Translations under genes and position numbers: made by a program
Part shown: positions 33,016 to 56,337 of the stretch, piece by piece
How the letters are laid out: each line of letters opens with the position of its first letter
Numbering within the stretch: the stretch's first letter is position 1
Source: Apoderus coryli
Lineage: Eukaryota; Arthropoda; Insecta; Coleoptera; Attelabidae
Direction: 5' to 3'
Assembly: GCA_911728435.2 (NCBI GenBank)
Contig: OU452200.1
Coordinates: 28,845,715-28,909,714, forward strand
DNA length: 64,000 bases
Notes under the pieces: generated by a model
The model's database searches: none
What the model was told of the DNA's origin: nothing
What the model saw: only the letters and a program-made list of their open reading frames with translations

Positions 33016-33343
33016 CTCAAACATTATTCGCTCGGCCTCGACTCGTCCAGGCGAAATCAGCACTAATGAATTTCCCAAAAACATATTTTCTTATTCTTAA
33101 AGGGGTTGGTTCGATAAGTTAATATAAAAACACCTTGCGGTATACCATAGTTTGCAGGTCACTGTCACTGTCTATTGTTAACTCATTAATACGGATTGTG
33201 TTTGAACAAACTCTCACGCAAGGGATTCGATTTGTGTTCTGCTGAGCAATGTGAAAAAGAATCCGACTAGAAGTCGGTACTCTGTATACTGTGTCCCAAA
33301 TTGGTCTAGACTGCATGGTAGTGACGTTGTTAGCAGATATATA
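33016..33343. other. Spacer, no gene seen
   Basis: No supported coding or structural feature. Confidence 0.3.
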
Positions 33344-34358
33344 GAGAATAGCGGTTTTGGCGATCTGTTCCTAATTTTTTATGAAACTTAAGACGCCATA
33401 ATCACAATTAGGCTAGCCCTTTTACTTTTTATACGAGTACAATACATTTTTATAGGTGCATGTTTAGGATAATTATTCCATCCTCAGCATTTTATTCTTT
33501 ATTTAAGAGTCCAATTATTGCTAAATAAATAAGGCTAAAGATAGAGACAATTATTCAATAAGTTATTAAAATGTTAATTATTACTCTCATTGATAAAGTA
33601 CTTATTAGTTTTACTTAAGCATTTATATTTTGCTGTAATTTATTTTTAAATATATTAATGTCTTGTTCAAATGTATACATACAAAGTTAAAATGATGTTT
33701 TTAGTTTTGATTTGTAATGGTTTTTAATTAAAATTTTGGTTTTATATATTTCTACCATAGAAGAAGAACTGGAAATGTGCAAATCTCCATATTTTCTTAA
33801 TTTTTAAAAATAACCATAAACAATTATTATATATTTTTGAGAAACTAAAAATGAGATAAATCGAAAGAAAAATATATTATAGAAAAATTGGTACCAACGA
33901 TAAAACTAGATGTCGCCAAACACATCCTTTTACATCTCTGTACCGTGTGGAGTATATACTACATTATTTACGAGAGTTTGGCTGTCAACTACTGACCGAT
34001 CACCACTGGTGAGTCGTGGATCGACGAAACGGCCGTCTGGTGAAAGTATAGTGGTTGACAGACAAACTCTCGGATTTTAAGTCTTGTTTTGTTAAACAAG
34101 CTCATTTCATATATTATAGTGTTATATATTAAAGAAAACTCAAAATGGAAATGATAAAAAAAAACTGAGTACCCCACTGGATTCTAGGTAAAAACCATAT
34201 TATAATGAAACAGTGATTATTTTTTTGACAGCTTGCGTAATAACATGGGGGTCCCAAAATGCAGAACGTCCAAAAAGTAAAACGGGTACCCCAATTCTAA
34301 TTATGGGGTCTTAAGTTTCATCAAAAAGTAGGAACGGATCGCGAAAAGCGCTAGGCTC
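33344..34358. mobile_element. Inverted-repeat element carrying a hammerhead-like hairpin
   Basis: Left arm 33344-33440 and right arm 34265-34358 are imperfect reverse complements over about 95 bp. Shared words are CTTAAGTTTCAT, CGATC-GTTCCTA and CTTTTACTTTTT, read on one strand. The element has no coding capacity. Its centre-right holds the 102-bp hairpin described separately. This could be a non-autonomous transposon, or two inverted retroelement ends. Confidence 0.6.
33971..34072 (+). ncRNA. Hammerhead ribozyme-like RNA in a long stem
   Basis: The outer stem CGAGAGTTTG/CAAACTCTCG (33971-33980 with 34063-34072) continues as CTGTCAACTAC/GTGGTTGACAG. After an 8-base internal loop on each side comes CACCA/TGGTG (34001-34005 with 34038-34042), which is stem I. 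The core is CTGGTGA (34006-34012; consensus CUGANGA, so A6 is G). Stem II GTCG-tggat-CGAC is perfect. GAA follows, then A-C-ggcc-G-T as a very short stem III, then C at 34037 as the cleavage base. The asymmetric internal loops of the long stem I are where natural hammerheads make loop-loop contacts. Only the A6 change argues against activity. Confidence 0.65.
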
Positions 34359-34788
34359 TAACTATAATTAGTTGATTCAGAATCCCGAGTCCAGAGTAAG
34401 TAGGATATGTTACGGCGAACCTATTGGTAATAACTTCAAAATTATGATCAAACAAAGGGAATTCAGGGTGATCGTCTATCTGCACTGGAAACTTGCTAGG
34501 TAATTATCTGTTAGAATTCTAGTGTTTAATAATTCTAAAAGTTTATTTGACAGCTGATTATCAAATATGTTTATTTTCATAATAATATTTTAGCTTGGAA
34601 TGTTCTTCTAAGGAATTCTTGGCCATGGAGATAACTTCATTGCACCAATAGCTATTCTAGCTGCCTTGAATTCGATATATAGTTTTTAAGTTGCTCTTGA
34701 AAGGTGAGAGAAAATGCTTCCAACTCAAATATTTCTAGCTATTAACTACCGAAAAACGGAACTCATTTATTTCTAAGCTAGGATATAC
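34359..34788. other. Spacer, no gene seen
   Basis: AT-rich; no open frame or known repeat recognised. Confidence 0.3.
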
Positions 34789-35623: not shown

Positions 35624-37997
35624 TCACAAAATACCAGTATAAATTTTGCTCAAACTATTTAGATCTTTTTTGTCGTTAATTGCTGATTGGTTTTTATGGA
35701 TATATACCATTTCTAGAAATTCTCTCCTTTTTTTGTTATTTTCAGTTTTCAGAATTTTGGTGTTATTGAAATCAAATTTATGGTTAGTTGTAATTTCATG
35801 ATTCGTTAATGCAGTTTTATTTTTTTTGTCGTATTTGTGACCTTTTATTCTATTTTCCAAATATTGGGATGTTTGGCTTATATATACTCCCTCACAATCA
35901 ACACATGGTATTTCGTAAATAATATTGCTTTTTTTCCATTTAGATGTTTTCGTTTTTAATGAGCTGAAGTATTTGGAACATAGATTATAACTTTTATGAC
36001 ATACATTAATCTTATATTTCTTCAAGAAATTTGAGAGTTGTTGGGACAAACCATCTATGTACGGTACAGAGAGATATTTATTTGTTCGAAACTGTATTTT
36101 GTTGATTGTTCCTGGATGCATCATTATACATTCGATGTATTCGGTCTTTAAAAATTTTGTTGATCAAGTTCGAGGGGTATTTATTTTTAATTAACGCATT
36201 TTTCGCTTTTTTTATGGCTGTGGATCTAAATTCAGGATCAGATAGTTGGATTGCTCTATCGGCTAAGCCAATTATAACGGATCTCTTTTGTGACGAAGGA
36301 TGACTAGAATGGTAGTTAAGATATCGAGACGACCAGGTGGGCTTGGTATACCATTCGGTCTTGATTTCATTGTGAATTTTATGTAAGGTTACATCCAGAA
36401 AATTAATTTTATTGTTATTTTGTGTTTCAATTGTAAATTGTAACCGTTCATTATACGAATTGAAACTATTTAGTACGTCGTTGACTCGGTCTTTTGGGAT
36501 CGCTGTAATACAGTCATCGACGTATCGATAGAAGAAAGGTATGTTTATATTAAGGCTTTCAATGATTGTTTCTTCCAAATCCTCCATAACCATTTGAGCA
36601 ATTACACTCGAAATGGCAGCTCCCATTGCACATCCGTTTATTTGTTTAAATAACTTATCTTCATAGACAAAATAAGTTGACTGTAATGTCATTTCCAGAG
36701 CATTGATAAATTCTTGCTGAGGAATATCAGTGTGTAGACTAATTTCGCTCCATTTTTTTTGGATAATAGTGTGGACAATCGGGATCGCGATGCTGGTATA
36801 TAACGACACTACATCCAAAGAAACAAGAATATAGTCATCAGGAATTTTTATGTTTTTCATTTTCTCTTTGAAGTCCCATGTATTTTTAATGTAATATTTG
36901 TTTTTGTAAAGAATGTTCTTTAAAATATCTTTTAAGAAATTTGAAACCGGGGTAAATGGTGTTTGTATAGAAGAAACAATTGGTCGTAGTAGAGTATTTA
37001 ATTTATGTAATTTAGGGAGACCATAAATCTTTGGTGGTATAGCGTTTAGTATTTTTAGTGCTCTACTAGTATTTGGAGAAATATACATTTTATTTTCCCA
37101 TGAGTCAATTAATTTATTAGTTTGTTTTTGATACGTATTTGTTGGGTCACGTTTAATTTCTTTATAGGTAGTATCGTCATTTAATAAATCAAGCATTTTT
37201 TTGTTGTATTCTGATGCATCCATAACAACAGTCTTGTTAGTTTTATCTGCTCTCAGAATTTTGAGTTGTTTATTATTTCTTAGAAAGTTATTAGTTTTTC
37301 TTAATTTGTTTTGGTCAATGTTATTTTTTAGATTTTTGTTTTTTAATTTATTTTTGAAGTTGGTAATAATGTTACATGTTTGAGTTCTTATTTTATCTTT
37401 ATCCTTACCATTAAGATGACTTGTGCCACATTCGATGTTAGAAAGAATATCAGCTACCGGAAGTTCTTTTTCCGAATTTATGTTTTGAGCAAAATTTGGA
37501 CCTAGGCTAAGGATTTCCGCTACTTCGTTTGGTATATCTGTGTTAGAAAGATTTTGGAGCCATTCTGTGGGCGACAAATCATTAGTTTGTGCTTCTGGTT
37601 TCTGTCTTAAAATGAGATTATTTATCTTATTAATATTCTTCCTCTTACCTGTTTGAAATATTTTTTCAGTTCTATTGTTGCATGTTTCAATAGATTTACT
37701 GAGTACACTATTTGGAATTTTTTGCGATATTTCGTTCTTCAATATTCCTATTTTGTTTTCAAGTTTCTTAATTAATGTAGTTGATTCGGTTATACATAAA
37801 TTTAAAATTTTAAAAATGAATTTTGGTAAGACACTTTCGCAATATTCACGCTGGAGGCTAACATTGGTAAAACTAATATGTGTACAACTAAAATTTAAAA
37901 ATATTGGTGTAATGTTATTGTTGTCACATCTCAGTAAGAATATTCTGCGGTTTTTCTGCTTTGCGATCCTCCGTTTAGTGTTTTCATAACTCTTCAA
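35624..37997 (-). pseudogene. Penelope-like retroelement ORF (RT plus GIY-YIG), one frameshift
   Basis: The first frame (37997 to 36078, 639 codons) carries an RT of the Penelope/telomerase-related type. It shows RIFLLRCDNN near residue 20, LRADKTNKTVVMD near 248 and KIYGLPKLHK near 327. The catalytic region follows with LVSLDVVSLYTSI (first Asp), INGCAMGAAISSVIAQ and FYRYVDDCI (catalytic YVDD, intact). The C-terminal endonuclease lies in the second frame (36124 to 35624). It has IIYEIPCVDCEGVYISQT, where relatives have YIGQT, so the Gly of the YIG half is Ser, plus R-I-K-G-H-K and LTNHEITTNHKFD. The frames overlap at 36078-36124, where one indel breaks the fusion. There are no other stops. 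The 5' end is uncertain; the listed start is not a true ATG-based choice. Confidence 0.92.
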
Positions 37998-38136
37998 TAA
38001 CAGTTTTTTTTATATTCGGTAACTACCTAATACCTAATATCACCAAATAATATAATAATTATTACATATGAGATCTAAAAATTATTTGGAATACTATTAA
38101 AAATCAACAATACATTTCAGTAAGTAGTTTACAAAA

Positions 38137-38715
38137 GATCCACTTTTCGTGCTTTCAAGCCAGCAAATTTTTTTATGATATCGTGGATATCTATGTCATC
38201 TAGTACAGATGATTCTATTGAAATAATAGATAAATTTTATAACCGTTCTTGACTCATTGACGATCTTAAATAATTTTTTATAAGTTTTAATTTTGAGAAA
38301 GATCTTTCTGCAGTTGCAACAGTTACTGGTAAAGTTAGTAAAATTCGAAGAGCAACTGCTAGGTTTGGATATACTGCGGTTAAATCGTTAGAAAATATAA
38401 ACTGTAAAATTTCAAATGTATCACTTTTTAAATCTTTCACCGTCGCGTCGGCTGGATCTGTACAATTTCCTCGTATAAATCGTCCCCATCTATATCACAA
38501 TTATCATTAAAACTAAGTTTTTCCTGTAATTTTTTACATGAAAGTTTTAACTGCGATTTTGCAAGAGTTTCGTTTAAGTTATATAAGAATTTAAAAGCGT
38601 CCATATGGGTTACTAATAAGGAAAATCGTTCATTCACTGAAACTAATGCTTGATCGAGAATGCAATAAAAAAAAAATAATTTTGTAAAATATTTGAGCAT
38701 CAGAAATTGGTTCAT
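38137..38715 (-). pseudogene. hAT transposase C-terminus (ZMYM type), broken
   Basis: The first frame (38715-38437) reads DQALVSVNERFSLLVTHMDA and onward. A frameshift near 38445 leads to DTFEILQFIF and YPNLAVALRILLTLPVTVAT, then AERSFSKLKLIKNYLRSSM. The last block is the hAT dimerisation domain signature. A TAA at about 38238 interrupts, after which NLSIISIESSVL and IIKKFAGLKARKVDLL complete the usual C-terminal end in frame. The dimerisation helix is well kept. The catalytic RNase-H part upstream is missing. The PLE lies immediately downstream, between this and the putative terminus at 34789. Confidence 0.8.
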
Positions 38716-44199: not shown

Positions 44200-44580
44200 T
44201 TCGTCGTCGTGGCTGAGCATGATTACTGCCCAAAACTAACGTTGTCCAACAGTTTAATGACCCACCTTATTTGTACAACAAGATAACTTTCCGAACTGAC
44301 ATACATAATTTAAAGGTTAGATTTAGAAATCTTCTGTCTCCCCCAGCACATAAAAGTTCGGGTTTCGGACGGTCCTTTTCATACCAGATTTACAAAATTT
44401 ATAATAATATACCAGAGAACCTGAAATCCCTAAGTATCTTTTCCTTAAAAAAAACTCTGTAATCTTATACTTAATCCGCTCTGATTGTTGATTTTTTTGT
44501 TTTGAATATTATTGTTGGTGTTTTATTTTTTTTATGATTATTATATTATATTTTTTTATGATTATTTTTATAATATTGTT
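44200..44580 (+). pseudogene. LINE C-terminal relic
   Basis: The frame 44271-44462 reads YNKITFRTDIHNLKVRFRNL, then SPPAHKSSGFGRSFSYQIYK and IYNNIPENLKSLSIFSLKKT. FRTDIHN...R...P-x-H-x-S-x-x-x-RSFSY and Y-N-x-I-P-x-x-L form the extreme C-terminus of CR1/Jockey-type LINE ORF2. A T-rich 3' UTR follows to about 44580, where another LINE fragment begins. Confidence 0.75.
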
Positions 44581-44582
44581 AT

Positions 44583-45245
44583 ATATTGTTCTGTTCTGGG
44601 GTAATGCATCTCACAGCGAAAAAATATTTAAAATTCAGAAAACAGCAATACGCATAGTAGCAAAAGCGAATTACAAGGATTCATGCAAGCCGTTGTTTAA
44701 AAAACTAAATATTTTCACTGTTCCTGCGTTATATATTTGGCAGTGTATTTTATATGTCAGAGATAATGCAGAGGGTTTAAATAGACACGGTGATATGCAT
44801 GAACATAACACAAGAAAAAAAGATAGGATATGCTTACCTCAGCACAGACTGGCCCTGACTGATAAACAGTGTTTGATCATGGGAATCAGATTTTACAACT
44901 ACTTGCCACTTTCCCTCCAAAACTTGAAAGACAATGTAAGGTTTAAGCAAGGGGTAAAACTGCATCTTCTTGAAATAATTCCGTACACTTACGCTGACTT
45001 TCTTAATTTCAAATTTTAAATGTACGAGTATATAGACTTAAAGTTTTGTTTCTGTAGGATTTGTAATTTTACACTTATTGTGTTGTTGTTGATGTCGTTC
45101 TGTTTGTTTACTTATGGTAATGTTTTTTATTTTATTTTGTGTTTTTTATATTATTTATATTACTTATAGTAGTTTTAGTATATGTATGACGATGCAGATA
45201 ACTGCGGTTAAAACGCAAATAAAGAATTATTATTATTATTATATT
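44583..45245 (+). pseudogene. LINE C-terminal fragment with 3' UTR and TTA tail
   Basis: The frame to 45019 reads VLFWGNASHSEKIFKIQKTA, IRIVAKANYKDSCKPLFKKL, then LYIWQCILYVRDN, HEHNTRKKDRICLPQHRLAL, and GIRFYNYLPLSLQNLKDNVR. The W-G-N-A, Q-K-x-A-I-R, H-x-x-N-T-R and Y-N-x-L-P blocks mark the region after the RT of Jockey/CR1-type elements. About 140 codons run without interruption. The 3' UTR ends at AAAACGCAAATAAAGAA and a TTA repeat at 45222-45243. It is a 5'-truncated, relatively young copy. Confidence 0.85.
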
Positions 45246-45353
45246 GTCAATAGTTTGTTTTTCTGTTAGCTCCAAGAAAGATATATTATACATGTTTTTT
45301 TTTATTATTATTTTGTAAAATAAGTTAACTACTTGTGTTTTTCTTCCTCTGGC

Positions 45354-45492
45354 CTAGATTTTGAAATCAGTCTTACTGCTATCTAGACCATTTTGTAGTT
45401 CTATGTTTAAGATAAAATTAAGTAAGGTATTGTAATTTATTTTCTGAACTGCAAATAAACTTATTATTATTATTATATTATTATTATTAATT
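45354..45492 (+). repeat. LINE 3' end (CR1-like) with TTA tail
   Basis: TCTGAACTGCAAATAAACTT plus TTATTATTATT matches, in opposite orientation, the 3' end of the LINE at 29056-29100. It is a short 5'-truncated insertion with no coding part. Confidence 0.7.
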
Positions 45493-45648
45493 ATACAATG
45501 AATTTGTGTCCGTAAATATAAAATGAAAAATAATTTCGTGGCATAGCGGCCTCTGTATGGTGGGATATGCATTACTATGTGTATGCAGATGGTACGGTTT
45601 ACATGTTTTATATCTCACTGTGCTTAAATGCAGGCCGATATTGTAGAT

Positions 45649-45718
45649 GGGCAACGACTATGGTACTCTGACGAGCTCATAATAAGAGCGAAACGAATTC
45701 GTCAGTATCTGTCGAGCC
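45649..45718 (+). ncRNA. Type I hammerhead ribozyme, unit 1
   Basis: Stem I is GGTACT (45662-45667) with AGTATC (45704-45709, one G-U). An internal loop TAT/T follows, then CGAC/GTCG and GGC/GCC further out. The core CTGACGA (45668-45674) is a perfect CUGANGA. Stem II is GCTC-ataataa-GAGC, perfect. GAA is at 45690-45692. The short stem III ACG-aatt-CGT is at 45693-45702. The cleavage base is C at 45703. Every conserved core position is present. The very short stem III suggests best activity as a dimer, as in other animal type I hammerheads. Confidence 0.85.
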
Positions 45719-46063
45719 ATACCTCGGTCTGGTTGTCCTGAATTATACCGAGGTCCTGCTAAATCCCTTGTGTAGGTAACACCAGTAATTTTGTCCGCTA
45801 TGCCACGAAATTATTTTTCATTTCAGCCACGATACCCAAATATTTTGGGTGATGCTAGCAGAAGAATAAATGGTCTCCTGCTAGCGTTTTGTGTTTACAC
45901 TATTTTTATTTTCTACATTTACGGCTGTTGTTATCTATACATTGGATTGTTTCGGCCTCTGTAGGGTGGGATATGCATTACTATGTGTAGGTAGATGGTA
46001 CGGTTTACATATATCTACTGTTGTATATCTCACTGTGCTTAAATACAGGCCTATATTGTAGAT

Positions 46064-46137
46064 GGGCAACGACTATGGTACTCTGACGAGCTCATAATAA
46101 GCGCGAAACGAATTCGTAAGTACCTATCCGTCGACCC
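46064..46137 (+). ncRNA. Type I hammerhead ribozyme, unit 2
   Basis: The same architecture lies 415 bp downstream. Stem I GGTACT/AGTACC is fully complementary (46077-46082 with 46119-46124). The outer CGAC/GTCG and GGG/CCC pairs are preserved although the 3' strand changed (GCC in unit 1, CCC here). The core CTGACGA is perfect (46083-46089). Stem II GCTC-ataataa-GCGC has one mismatch. GAAA, stem III ACG-aatt-CGT and A as the cleavage base (46118, allowed as H) follow. The retained pairing despite base changes argues for selection or descent from an active RNA. Confidence 0.8.
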
Positions 46138-46250
46138 ATACCTCTATCTGGTTCTACTGAATTAGACTGAGGCCCTGCTAAATTAAACAAAATCCCATGT
46201 GTAGGTGACACCAGTAATTTTGTCATCTATGCCACGAAATTATTGTTCAC

Positions 46251-47520
46251 TTTAATGAATAATTTGAATACCTACCTAACAAACAAAAGCTTATTAAAAT
46301 CCATCAAAATATAAAAAAGTTACAAGGCAGTAATATAAGCTGGTTATTTTTGGTTGGTTGGACATTGACGCAATTTTAATTTGGACATTTTATAATGTGA
46401 TTGTATGATTGTTTTTAATTTGTAGATCTGATTTTGTCGACGTTTAATATGCAAAATACAAACTATGGCTATATGAGATCAATAATTCCCACTGCTAGTA
46501 TAAGTACAAATGTGAATTTAATGGGTTTTTAAATTTGTGAAAAATCTCTGCTCGGACATACTTTATTCGTTAGGCTAAAATATATTATCGACAGTTCCTC
46601 GGCTATAAAATTACCAATTCGACTTTATTATTATTGGCGTTTTATTGCAAAACAGCAACATTTTTTTAACTTTGCGTGCCATCGCCCACCAAAAGTAAGC
46701 CCAAGTCAAGAGTGGGCAATTCACTTTTAAAATTTACGAACAGTGCACCTTCGTATATGTCACATAAGTTAGACCATCGTATATACCAATAAGTTTATAA
46801 TATGTATAGAGCCACATAAAAAACGATTTGCGGGTATTCTTTATTGAAAGCTTGCCCAGTGCTTATTTACAATGCAGTTTCGATGCATATTTTTACTAAA
46901 AATAATTGGTATCTTGACCCTACATCGTCAATTTTTCGGAATATATTCAAGTTTGCGTGTAAAGAAAATTGCAGGCACAGAAATTTTCTAAATTTTTAAA
47001 CTGTATAAAATCAACATGTCGTGACTTATTATTAAGATTAATAAATTTTAAAATTATATTAATTTAAACGGATACATAATATACAAGGGGTTCTTAAATA
47101 GCTTGTGGAATTTCGAATAAATAAAATCAGATGATCCTATTGCTAGCACTAGATGCACCTATTTTACCTAGCGGCAAGTAAGCTATCTTGAACAAATATA
47201 ATAAACTTCTTTGTCGAAAAAACTTTATCTTTATGGAATCAAAATCTAAAAATATTATTGACACACAGAGGCTGTTATTTTCCTGAAACCTACGACTAAA
47301 CATAAAATAGCCGATGGAAAAACCTACTACTTGAACATATATATTGGATCATAATCTACACAAATAATAGATGAGCATTTATAAGTGAGCCACAACTCCT
47401 TGAGGACAAGATTTTTGTTCCACTATCATGGAGTGTGGTCCGTCAGACTTGCCCTCTGCATCTCTGAAATGAAAAATTAAAGATATCGCCCTATTAGGCT
47501 TTAAGACAAGCCCCGATGAG
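46251..47520. other. AT-rich intergenic DNA
   Basis: No coding region, RNA gene or transposon terminus was recognised. Confidence 0.35.
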
Positions 47521-54094: not shown

Positions 54095-56337
54095 ATCCAC
54101 GAAAACGCAAAAACCGCTTTACAGATTTTAACCAAATTTGGTACAAAAATACTATTGGACATGGCAAGGAGCTGATTAGATTTTGGGAAACATTGAGCGT
54201 AGGCAAAGGGTTTAAAAGAGGGTTCAAAAATTAAAAAAATTCATAGTTCTTAAACTTATCCGAAATACTGCATAATTTTTTACGCATTTAATTGAATATA
54301 ACCTAAAATATTGAACATAAAATATTAGACCACATTGGCGTTCGAAAATAGTGTAAAATGGGGTAAAAAAGATTAAAAAAAAAACGTATTTCTTAAAAAT
54401 AGCAGAAATATTAACTAGTTATTGATAGTTTTGATAGAATATAACCTATAAAATGTGTTATGAATAACTTACTTTCATAGGCGTTCGTAAATAGTGGAAA
54501 AGGGGTCAAAACATAAAAAATATATATTTCCTAAACTTATTCGAAATATGGAATAATTTTTCATAGTTGTGATACAATATAAGCTAAAAAATATTCCATA
54601 AAAGAATTGGTTCACACAGGCGTTCGAAAATAGTTTAAAAAAAGGGTCAAAAACGAAAAAAAAAACGTTTCCCAAATATACCAGAAAAATTGGCTAATTA
54701 TATATAGCTTTGATATAAGATAACCTAAAAAATGCAGCATAAAATTTTTATTCACATAGGCGTTCGTAAATAGTAGAAAAAGGGGTAAAATAAAAAAAAA
54801 TTAAAATGTAAAAATTTTTATATTTAACTAGATGAATTGGTGTTAAAAATACACGACAAAAATTAATGTACCATAGGCGTCCGTAAAAATTCTATAAAAG
54901 GGTCAGAAAAAATTTGTATCCGTGATAACTCAAAAACCATATAACGGATTTTAACCACATTTGGTACGAAAATACTACAGGATAATTATAGGTGGTGATT
55001 AACATTGAGCGTAGGCAACGGGTTTAAAAGAGGTTTCAAAAATTTAAAAAATCATAGTTCTTAAACTTATCCGAAATATTGAATAATTTTTTATAGTTGT
55101 GATAGAATATAACCTAAAAAATGTTACATAAAAGAATTAGTTCACACAGGCGTTCGAAAATAGTGTTAAAAAAGGGTCAAAAACGAAAAAAAAATGTTTC
55201 CCAAATATACCAGAAAAATTGGCTAATTATATATAGCTTTGATATAAGATAACCTAAAAAATGCAGCATAAAATTTTTATTTACATAGGCGTTCGTAAAT
55301 AGTAGAAAAAGGGGTAAAATAAAAAAAATTAAAATGTAAAAAATTTTATATTTAACTAGTTGAGTTGGTGTTAAAAATACACGACAAAAATTAATGTTCC
55401 ATAGGCGTTCGTGAAAATTCTATAAAAGGGTCAGAAAAAATTTGTATCCGTGATAACTCAAAAACCACTTAACGGATTTTAATCACATTTGGTACGAAAA
55501 TACTACAGGCTATTTATAGGTGGTGATTAACATTGAGCGTAGGCAAGGGGTTTAAAAGAGGGTTCAAAAATTTAAAAAAATTTTAGTTCTTAAACTTATC
55601 CGAAATATTGAATAATTTTTTATAGGTGTGATAGAATATAACCTAAAAAATGTTACATAAAAGAATTAGTTCACACAGGCGTTCGAAAATAGTCTTAAAA
55701 AAAGAGTCAAAAACGAAAAAAAAATGTTTCCCAAATATACCAGAAAAATTGGCTAATTATATATAGCTTTCATATAAGATAACCTAAAAAATGCAGCATA
55801 AAATTTTTATTTACATAGGCGTTCGTAAATAGTAAAAAAAAGGGGTAAAATGAAAAAAAAATTAAAATGTAAAAATTTTTATATTTAACTAGTTGAATTG
55901 GTGTTAAAAATACACGACAAAAATTAATGTTCCATAGGCGTCCGTGAAAATTCTATAAAAGGGTCAGGAAAAAATTGTATCCGTGATAACTCAAAAACCA
56001 CTTAACGGATAACCTACAACATGCAGCATAACAATTTTGTTTACATAGGCGTTCGTAAATAGTAGAAAAGGGGGCAAAATAAATTTTATAATAAAACTAA
56101 AAAAAAATCAATTATTTTGCGTACAAGAATTTGGCCTAGATCTGGAATATAAAATATCTGCGTATAAATAGTGCCTCCAAAGAGAAGAAAAAGGCACAAA
56201 ACCCGATACAAAAAAAAAAAAAATAGCTGATGTCTAAAACAAAACAAAAATTTAGATAAATAACAAAAAGGTCATAAAATTATGACTTTTACACTTAAAT
56301 ATGGAGAGCTATTCGTGCCTCGAGGGCAACAGCTAGT
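53874..56337 (+). mobile_element. Helitron-like non-autonomous repeat, copy 2
   Basis: It starts TCTCCATATCATATATG after AGC, as in copy 1. The 3' end reads TGCC-tcgag-GGCA (hairpin, 56316-56328), then ACAG and CTAGT (56333-56337), followed by T. A small hairpin a few bases before CTRRT and insertion before T are Helitron hallmarks. It has no coding capacity. The interior contains a roughly 530-bp module in tandem (TATCCGTGATAACTCAAAAA at about 54916, 55445 and 55978), about 2.2 copies, whereas copy 1 has one. Homology to copy 1 may begin a few bases before the TC, which weakens the 5' boundary. Confidence 0.6.
54004..54094. repeat. (TGTC)n microsatellite
   Basis: About 22 units with one TGTA interruption near 54050. 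The same site in copy 1 (3658-3670) has about three, so the tract expanded in this copy. Confidence 0.95.

Follow-up and report, generated by a model that had tools for sequence, protein, structure and literature searches.

A probable decaying retrozyme insertion with an inverted tail copy at its left end in the beetle Apoderus coryli

Described retrozymes and Penelope-like elements

Retrozymes in animals yield abundant small circular RNAs, and the enzyme that inserts them has not been established. In the account of Cervera and de la Pena (2020), animal non-LTR retrozymes consist of tandem units, each 150-450 bp long with a type I hammerhead, that have a GC content below 50% and no coding capacity, and their target-site duplications, when present, are longer than 4 bp (PMC7229834). 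The same account names autonomous Penelope-like elements (PLEs) as a strong candidate for mobilising them, a proposal made on circumstantial grounds: the two co-occur, both form tandem copies and both have hammerheads (PMC7229834). Penelope insertions have been described in which a 5'-truncated copy adjoins a full copy, with inverted pseudo-LTRs (pLTRs) at the 5' end and microhomology at the junction, and in which target-site duplications are 8-10 bp in some copies and lacking in others (PMC3846280); the word hammerhead is absent from that paper. In an Anolis PLE, reverse transcription begins inside the element's own RNA, a feature that its authors connect with the 'tail' found on genomic copies, and that study reports that hammerhead mutants left insertion in vitro unaffected and that no RNA-seq reads had either end at the cleavage site (PMC11167929).

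The window analysed here, a stretch of 64,000 nucleotides from the attelabid beetle Apoderus coryli (contig OU452200.1), has a GC content of 31.7%, is eukaryotic in character and contains numerous mobile-element remnants. Sequence, repeat analysis and a comparison of descriptor searches with shuffles confirmed the claim of a preliminary description that two direct-repeat hammerhead units lie here with cleavage sites 415 nt apart. The inferred unit is 429 nt long, the monomer has a GC content of 0.40, and no ORF of at least 100 aa was found in the units. A tandem type I dimer with a monomer of approximately 415-429 nt, low GC content and no ORF fits the animal retrozymes as described in PMC7229834, and a short stem III and strongly self-paired RNA are further points of likeness; a point of difference is that the left copy here is cut short and bears an inverted tail at its upstream end. 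The main text of PMC7229834 does not contain the word 'inverted', and a search of the open-access literature, mostly at abstract level, found neither an inverted end on a retrozyme nor a retrozyme from a beetle. The earlier designation as a retrozyme-like element holds for the tandem type I dimer, its size, its GC content and the lack of an ORF, but the second motif is damaged and the hammerhead is the lowest-energy fold of neither. We consider it probable that the locus is a decaying, non-autonomous animal (non-LTR) retrozyme insertion, arising from repeated rounds of reverse transcription on circular or multimeric RNA.

Hammerhead motifs

The type I hammerhead consensus consists of the core CUGANGA...GAAA, three stems, an NUH cleavage site and an open stem I. 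CTGACGA cores were found at 45668 and 46083, and each unit carries GCTC-ATAATAA, GAAA and the palindrome ACGAATTCGT (45693-45702 and 46108-46117). Both motifs, on the forward strand, were delimited by a lenient Rfam scan, a descriptor search and folding. In hammerhead 1 (45655-45714), outer stem I is formed by 45655-45658/45711-45714, inner stem I by 45662-45667/45704-45709 and stem II by 45675-45678/45686-45689; the core occupies 45668-45674, GAAA 45690-45693 and the stem III palindrome 45693-45702, and cleavage is predicted after C45703. With a perfect core, 6 bp in inner stem I, 4 bp in stem II, a stem III within ACGAATTCGT and a GUC site, this motif agrees fully with the consensus. In hammerhead 2 (46070-46133), the core lies at 46083-46089, stem II at 46090-46093/46101-46104, GAAA at 46105-46108 and stem III at 46108-46117, with predicted cleavage after A46118; it agrees with the consensus except for one stem II pair, where U stands opposite C.

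Inner stem I is paired in both motifs, as had been claimed, with GGUACU facing AGUAUC or AGUACC. A GCTC stem II had likewise been assigned to both units and is intact in unit 1, but in unit 2 GCGC stands opposite GCTC and one pair is broken, and unit 2 has GUA, not GUC, at its predicted site. The proposed covariation in outer stem I (GCC versus CCC) proved to be a slip by one base, the facing GGGC strand being unchanged. Unit 1 is 4 nt shorter than unit 2 on the 3' side of stem I, probably through a loss in unit 1. When counted on the alignment, the 60 nt of hammerhead 1 differ between the copies by 3 substitutions and a 4-nt indel, as against 23 of 277 sites overall; conservation is thus in no clear excess, and selection on the hammerhead was rejected.

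The hammerhead signal exceeds chance. Using a descriptor that was composed after the motif had been seen, and 1000 dinucleotide shuffles of the window as the null, a perfect core with stems I, II and III of at least 6, 4 and 2 bp was matched once in the window (at 45668) and in none of the shuffles. Relaxing stems I and II to at least 5 and 3 bp still returned motif 1 alone (2 of 1000 shuffles matched), and at least 5 and 2 bp returned both motifs (3 of 1000); a preliminary set of 12 shuffles had given no descriptor match. An Rfam scan of the whole window at the gathering threshold gave no match. In a lenient scan of 1001 bases, the covariance-model check suggested earlier, Hammerhead_HH9 (RF02275) was the best family at both motifs, but its scores of 22.1 and 17.5 bits (E 0.01 and 0.3) are far below the gathering score of 52. 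In the lenient scan of the whole window, E<=3 was reached by motif 1 alone (E 0.64).

Energy computations, which do not include tertiary contacts, gave the hammerhead as the lowest-energy fold in neither motif: -13.3 versus -23.3 kcal/mol in motif 1, where CUGACGA can pair instead with UCGUCAG, and -11.2 versus -16.5 kcal/mol in motif 2. In a cricket satellite, 113 of 146 sequences assessed as potentially active likewise had a different fold at lowest energy (PMC2837043). Action as a dimer via the palindrome may be possible in principle; the dimer form was considered for hammerhead 1, and the computed dimer structure was not a hammerhead. With motif 2 damaged and folds of lower energy than the hammerhead available to both motifs, present-day RNA release may be weak or absent.

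Rfam Hammerhead_1 matched a second hammerhead-like motif at 34000-34043 on the forward strand, with 26.6 bits against a gathering score of 34 and E 0.032 in the whole window. Its core at 34006, CTGGTGA, is one base off the consensus, and 57 of 1000 shuffles match at one mismatch. The 102 nt around it (33971-34072) have a very long stem I and the palindromic ACGGCCGT, and fold with a z-score of -7.6. Inverted arms of 99 nt flank this motif (33337-33435 and 34267-34365, 82%), and at E<=0.01 blastn did not match it to the tandem units.

Anatomy and folding of the element

The right copy, 429 nt at 45824-46252 on the forward strand, was inferred to be the full-length unit from alignment and fold, and the left copy (45547-45823, same strand), aligned to it, is 5'-truncated to 277 nt. 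The left copy and 45953-46252 are 84.7% identical over 300 columns, with 23 mismatches and 3 gaps comprising 23 columns, and the direct repeats are spaced 406-429 nt apart. The first 129 nt of the right copy (45824-45952, +) have no counterpart in the left copy. From the predicted sites, the expected RNA between them is the 415 nt of 45704-46118 on the forward strand. Differences at 23 of 277 aligned sites and three indels indicate that the two copies have diverged since insertion, and, judged by sequence, both units now depart from an ideal hammerhead, unit 1 by a probably shortened 3' side of stem I and unit 2 by the stem II mismatch and GUA.

An inverted-repeat search revealed that the 29 nt at 45521-45549 repeat the unit's 3' end in inverted orientation (-), with 100% complementarity to 45795-45823, the 3' end of unit 1 itself. 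The last 3 nt of this arm (CGG) overlap the start of the truncated left copy. Homology between the two units starts at 45547, among the three innermost nt of the inverted repeat, which is what a single template switch should produce. With the right-hand tail, an inverted repeat of 28 nt (45519-45546/46227-46254, 93%) is formed, which has TA outermost on both sides. The tail sequence is present three times, in the left inverted arm and at the end of each unit, and the search found no left inverted arm for unit 2. This inverted repeat, the 129-nt part and the truncation of the left copy had not been part of the preliminary description.

A 7-nt match, AATGAAT, at 45497-45503 and 46254-46260 may be a target-site duplication; one base separates its right member from the end of the right copy's homology at 46252. 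It was found post hoc and is for that reason a weak candidate; 217 of 20000 random same-spaced junction pairs match equally well. Its short length and the 17 nt that separate the left AATGAAT from the inverted arm (45504-45520) also count against it. No further copies of the unit were found in the window by blastn at E<=1. In the viral_contigs collection, 0 matches were obtained for each of three exact patterns, taken from the hammerhead, from the tail and from the stem I region, and a degenerate hammerhead pattern likewise gave 0 in genome_contigs; this says little, because the collections are described as containing viral, bacterial and archaeal sequence.

The right copy folds at -141.4 kcal/mol, with z-scores of -7.9 on the forward and -4.4 on the reverse strand (60 shuffles each). 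For unit 1 the values are -3.3 on the ribozyme strand and -0.8 on the opposite strand, so that for both copies it is the ribozyme strand that folds more strongly. As a circle, the monomer 45704-46118 gave -127.7 kcal/mol (z -5.1), with none of 100 shuffles equally low. In the predicted fold, 45824-45952 forms hairpins and pairs with the unit's tail, and adding these 129 nt gains -14.9 kcal/mol, compared with -6.1 (sd 2.7) for 300 random 129-mers of the window, none of which was equally low. In a simple test of duplex energy with the whole unit body, the 129-nt part was unremarkable (135 of 600 random pieces equally low). When tail segments were used, 0 of 1961 random pieces were equally low for the right tail, 8 of 1961 for the left and 0 for both, but these segments were picked after the fold was known and the test is given little weight. 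Since the full-unit fold and the interaction gain support it, the 129-nt part appears to belong to the unit, whose full length would then be 429 nt.

Neighbouring elements and the origin of the insertion

Among the Pfam-type matches in the window are an RVT_1 reverse transcriptase, a zf-RVT/RNase H fragment, a fragment of the mariner-type Transposase_1 (PF01359) and two HTH proteins of Tc/mariner-like make-up. Just left of the tandem units, 44492-45494 has a TAT-rich tail and was presumed by eye to be the 3' end of a non-LTR element; the ORF at 44492-45019 within it has no Pfam match, and blastn found 59 nt of the tail region a second time, at 95%, on the other strand at 29112-29055. A degenerate tandem repeat of 140-141 bp occupies 54333-55870, in three blocks with other sequence between them. 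An old Penelope-like copy lies 7.5 kb from the tandem units on the reverse strand. Its reverse transcriptase ORF (36078-38009, identified from protein relatives and tblastn) and endonuclease ORF (35624-36163, from tblastn of relatives, without a Pfam match) are together nearly complete (35624-38009) and in two frames, and the two highest-ranking database relatives match them at 55-56% and 63%, while the top protein in the database is 57% identical. The protein search gave 199 relatives of the reverse transcriptase; in the 120 listed, 13 carried named species, comprising 11 beetle entries (Coccinella 6, Callosobruchus 2, Sitophilus, Diabrotica and Cylas) together with Armigeres and Ixodes. This composition, although that of a transposon's relatives, makes a beetle host probable. 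The copy is broken, and also looks 5'-truncated, because matches to four PLE relatives begin at their residues 19-35, near position 38000. The sequence upstream of the Penelope ORF, at 38140-38340 (-), resembles by eye what we take to be the C-terminal part of a hAT transposase.

The locus might alternatively be a TIR-bearing DNA transposon (MITE) with a chance hammerhead, tandemly duplicated or inserted twice, whose 29-nt inverted ends would be bound by a transposase. The perfect 29-nt inverted repeat around unit 1, the 28-nt repeat with outermost TA around the whole pair, and the transposase remnants in the window, including the Transposase_1 match, would suit such an origin. However, with the tail sequence present three times only the left arm needs explaining, the homology of unit 2 to unit 1 starts exactly at that arm's inner edge, no target-site duplication framing unit 1 alone was seen by eye, and the RNA fold is strand-biased and takes in the 129-nt part. 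Because unit 2 has no left arm, a plain MITE is unlikely. DNA-level unequal exchange, spreading a short piece of hammerhead satellite without RNA mobility, is very improbable: the insect satellite pDo500 of Dolichopoda does have hammerheads within its repeat (PMC2837043), but it is a cave-cricket satellite family, whereas this locus is a two-copy insertion, with one copy truncated and an inverted cap, in a window with other mobile-element remnants.

A solo or tandem pLTR of a PLE, with a hammerhead that processes Penelope RNA, would share with the locus the partial tandem copies, head-to-head inverted ends and microhomology joins described for Penelope (PMC3846280), the hammerhead that PLE pLTRs can carry (PMC11167929), and the Penelope ORFs nearby. 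The published inverted pLTR is 181 bp, compared with 29 nt for the arm here (PMC3846280), and pLTRs as published include or adjoin the first ORF codons (PMC3846280, PMC11167929), whereas no PLE ORF lies in or beside these units. In tblastn, the 120 listed relatives (of 199) matched nothing in or beside the units and were placed at 35.6-38.0 kb (-) only; blastn between the Penelope copy with its flanks and the units gave no match at E<=1, and no hammerhead was found by Rfam and descriptor searches on the strand of the Penelope copy. PLE hammerheads are described as minimal variants without helix III or loop-loop contacts (PMC7761336), but those of the units have a stem III and, within stem I, an internal loop that may or may not make such contacts. 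Since the listed relatives are unmatched at the units and PLE hammerheads are minimal, we regard a PLE pLTR as improbable on present evidence.

For a retrozyme, the anatomy would be accounted for as follows. Read-through transcription of a tandem source locus would give an RNA whose type I hammerheads each self-cleave, and a monomer of approximately 415-429 nt would be freed and, as in published retrozymes, circularised by a host ligase; for this locus, release and circularisation of the 415-nt RNA are predictions and may have occurred. A reverse transcriptase acting in trans would begin at the unit's 3' tail, copy the full unit (45824-46252), enter a second round and halt after 277 nt (45547-45823). 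The upstream end would be completed by 26-29 nt of inverted 3' tail at the 3-nt overlap CGG, in the simplest history by a template switch there, and a 7-nt target duplication may lie on either side of the insert. The trans-acting enzyme would most likely be a Penelope-like reverse transcriptase with a GIY-YIG endonuclease, which is favoured because partial tandems and head-to-head inverted ends have been published for Penelope. Given the in vitro result with the Anolis mutants, the ribozyme need not have a part in insertion itself.

The link between Penelope and this insertion is suggestive, coming from one locus, and the inverted end of a single locus could also have arisen in some other way. 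The likeness of the footprint to published Penelope insertions, the Penelope ORFs 7.5 kb away and the proposal of Cervera and de la Pena speak for it. Against it stand the short inverted arm, the published Penelope copies that lack a target-site duplication, the broken state of the Penelope copy in the window, which has neither a blastn match to the units nor a hammerhead found on its strand, and the Anolis results. Tentatively, the insertion footprint may be that of Penelope machinery, in which case the locus would be physical evidence that PLE reverse transcriptases mobilise animal retrozymes, tail-primed and over more than one turn of circular RNA. The readable ends, namely a full unit, a truncated unit, an inverted tail and a candidate target-site duplication, suggest where reverse transcription started and stopped, and give this locus more value than a plain tandem pair, with the mobilisation claim being that of a single locus. 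Should other copies in this genome end at the same point of the tail and carry inverted caps, the mover of retrozymes would become directly testable.
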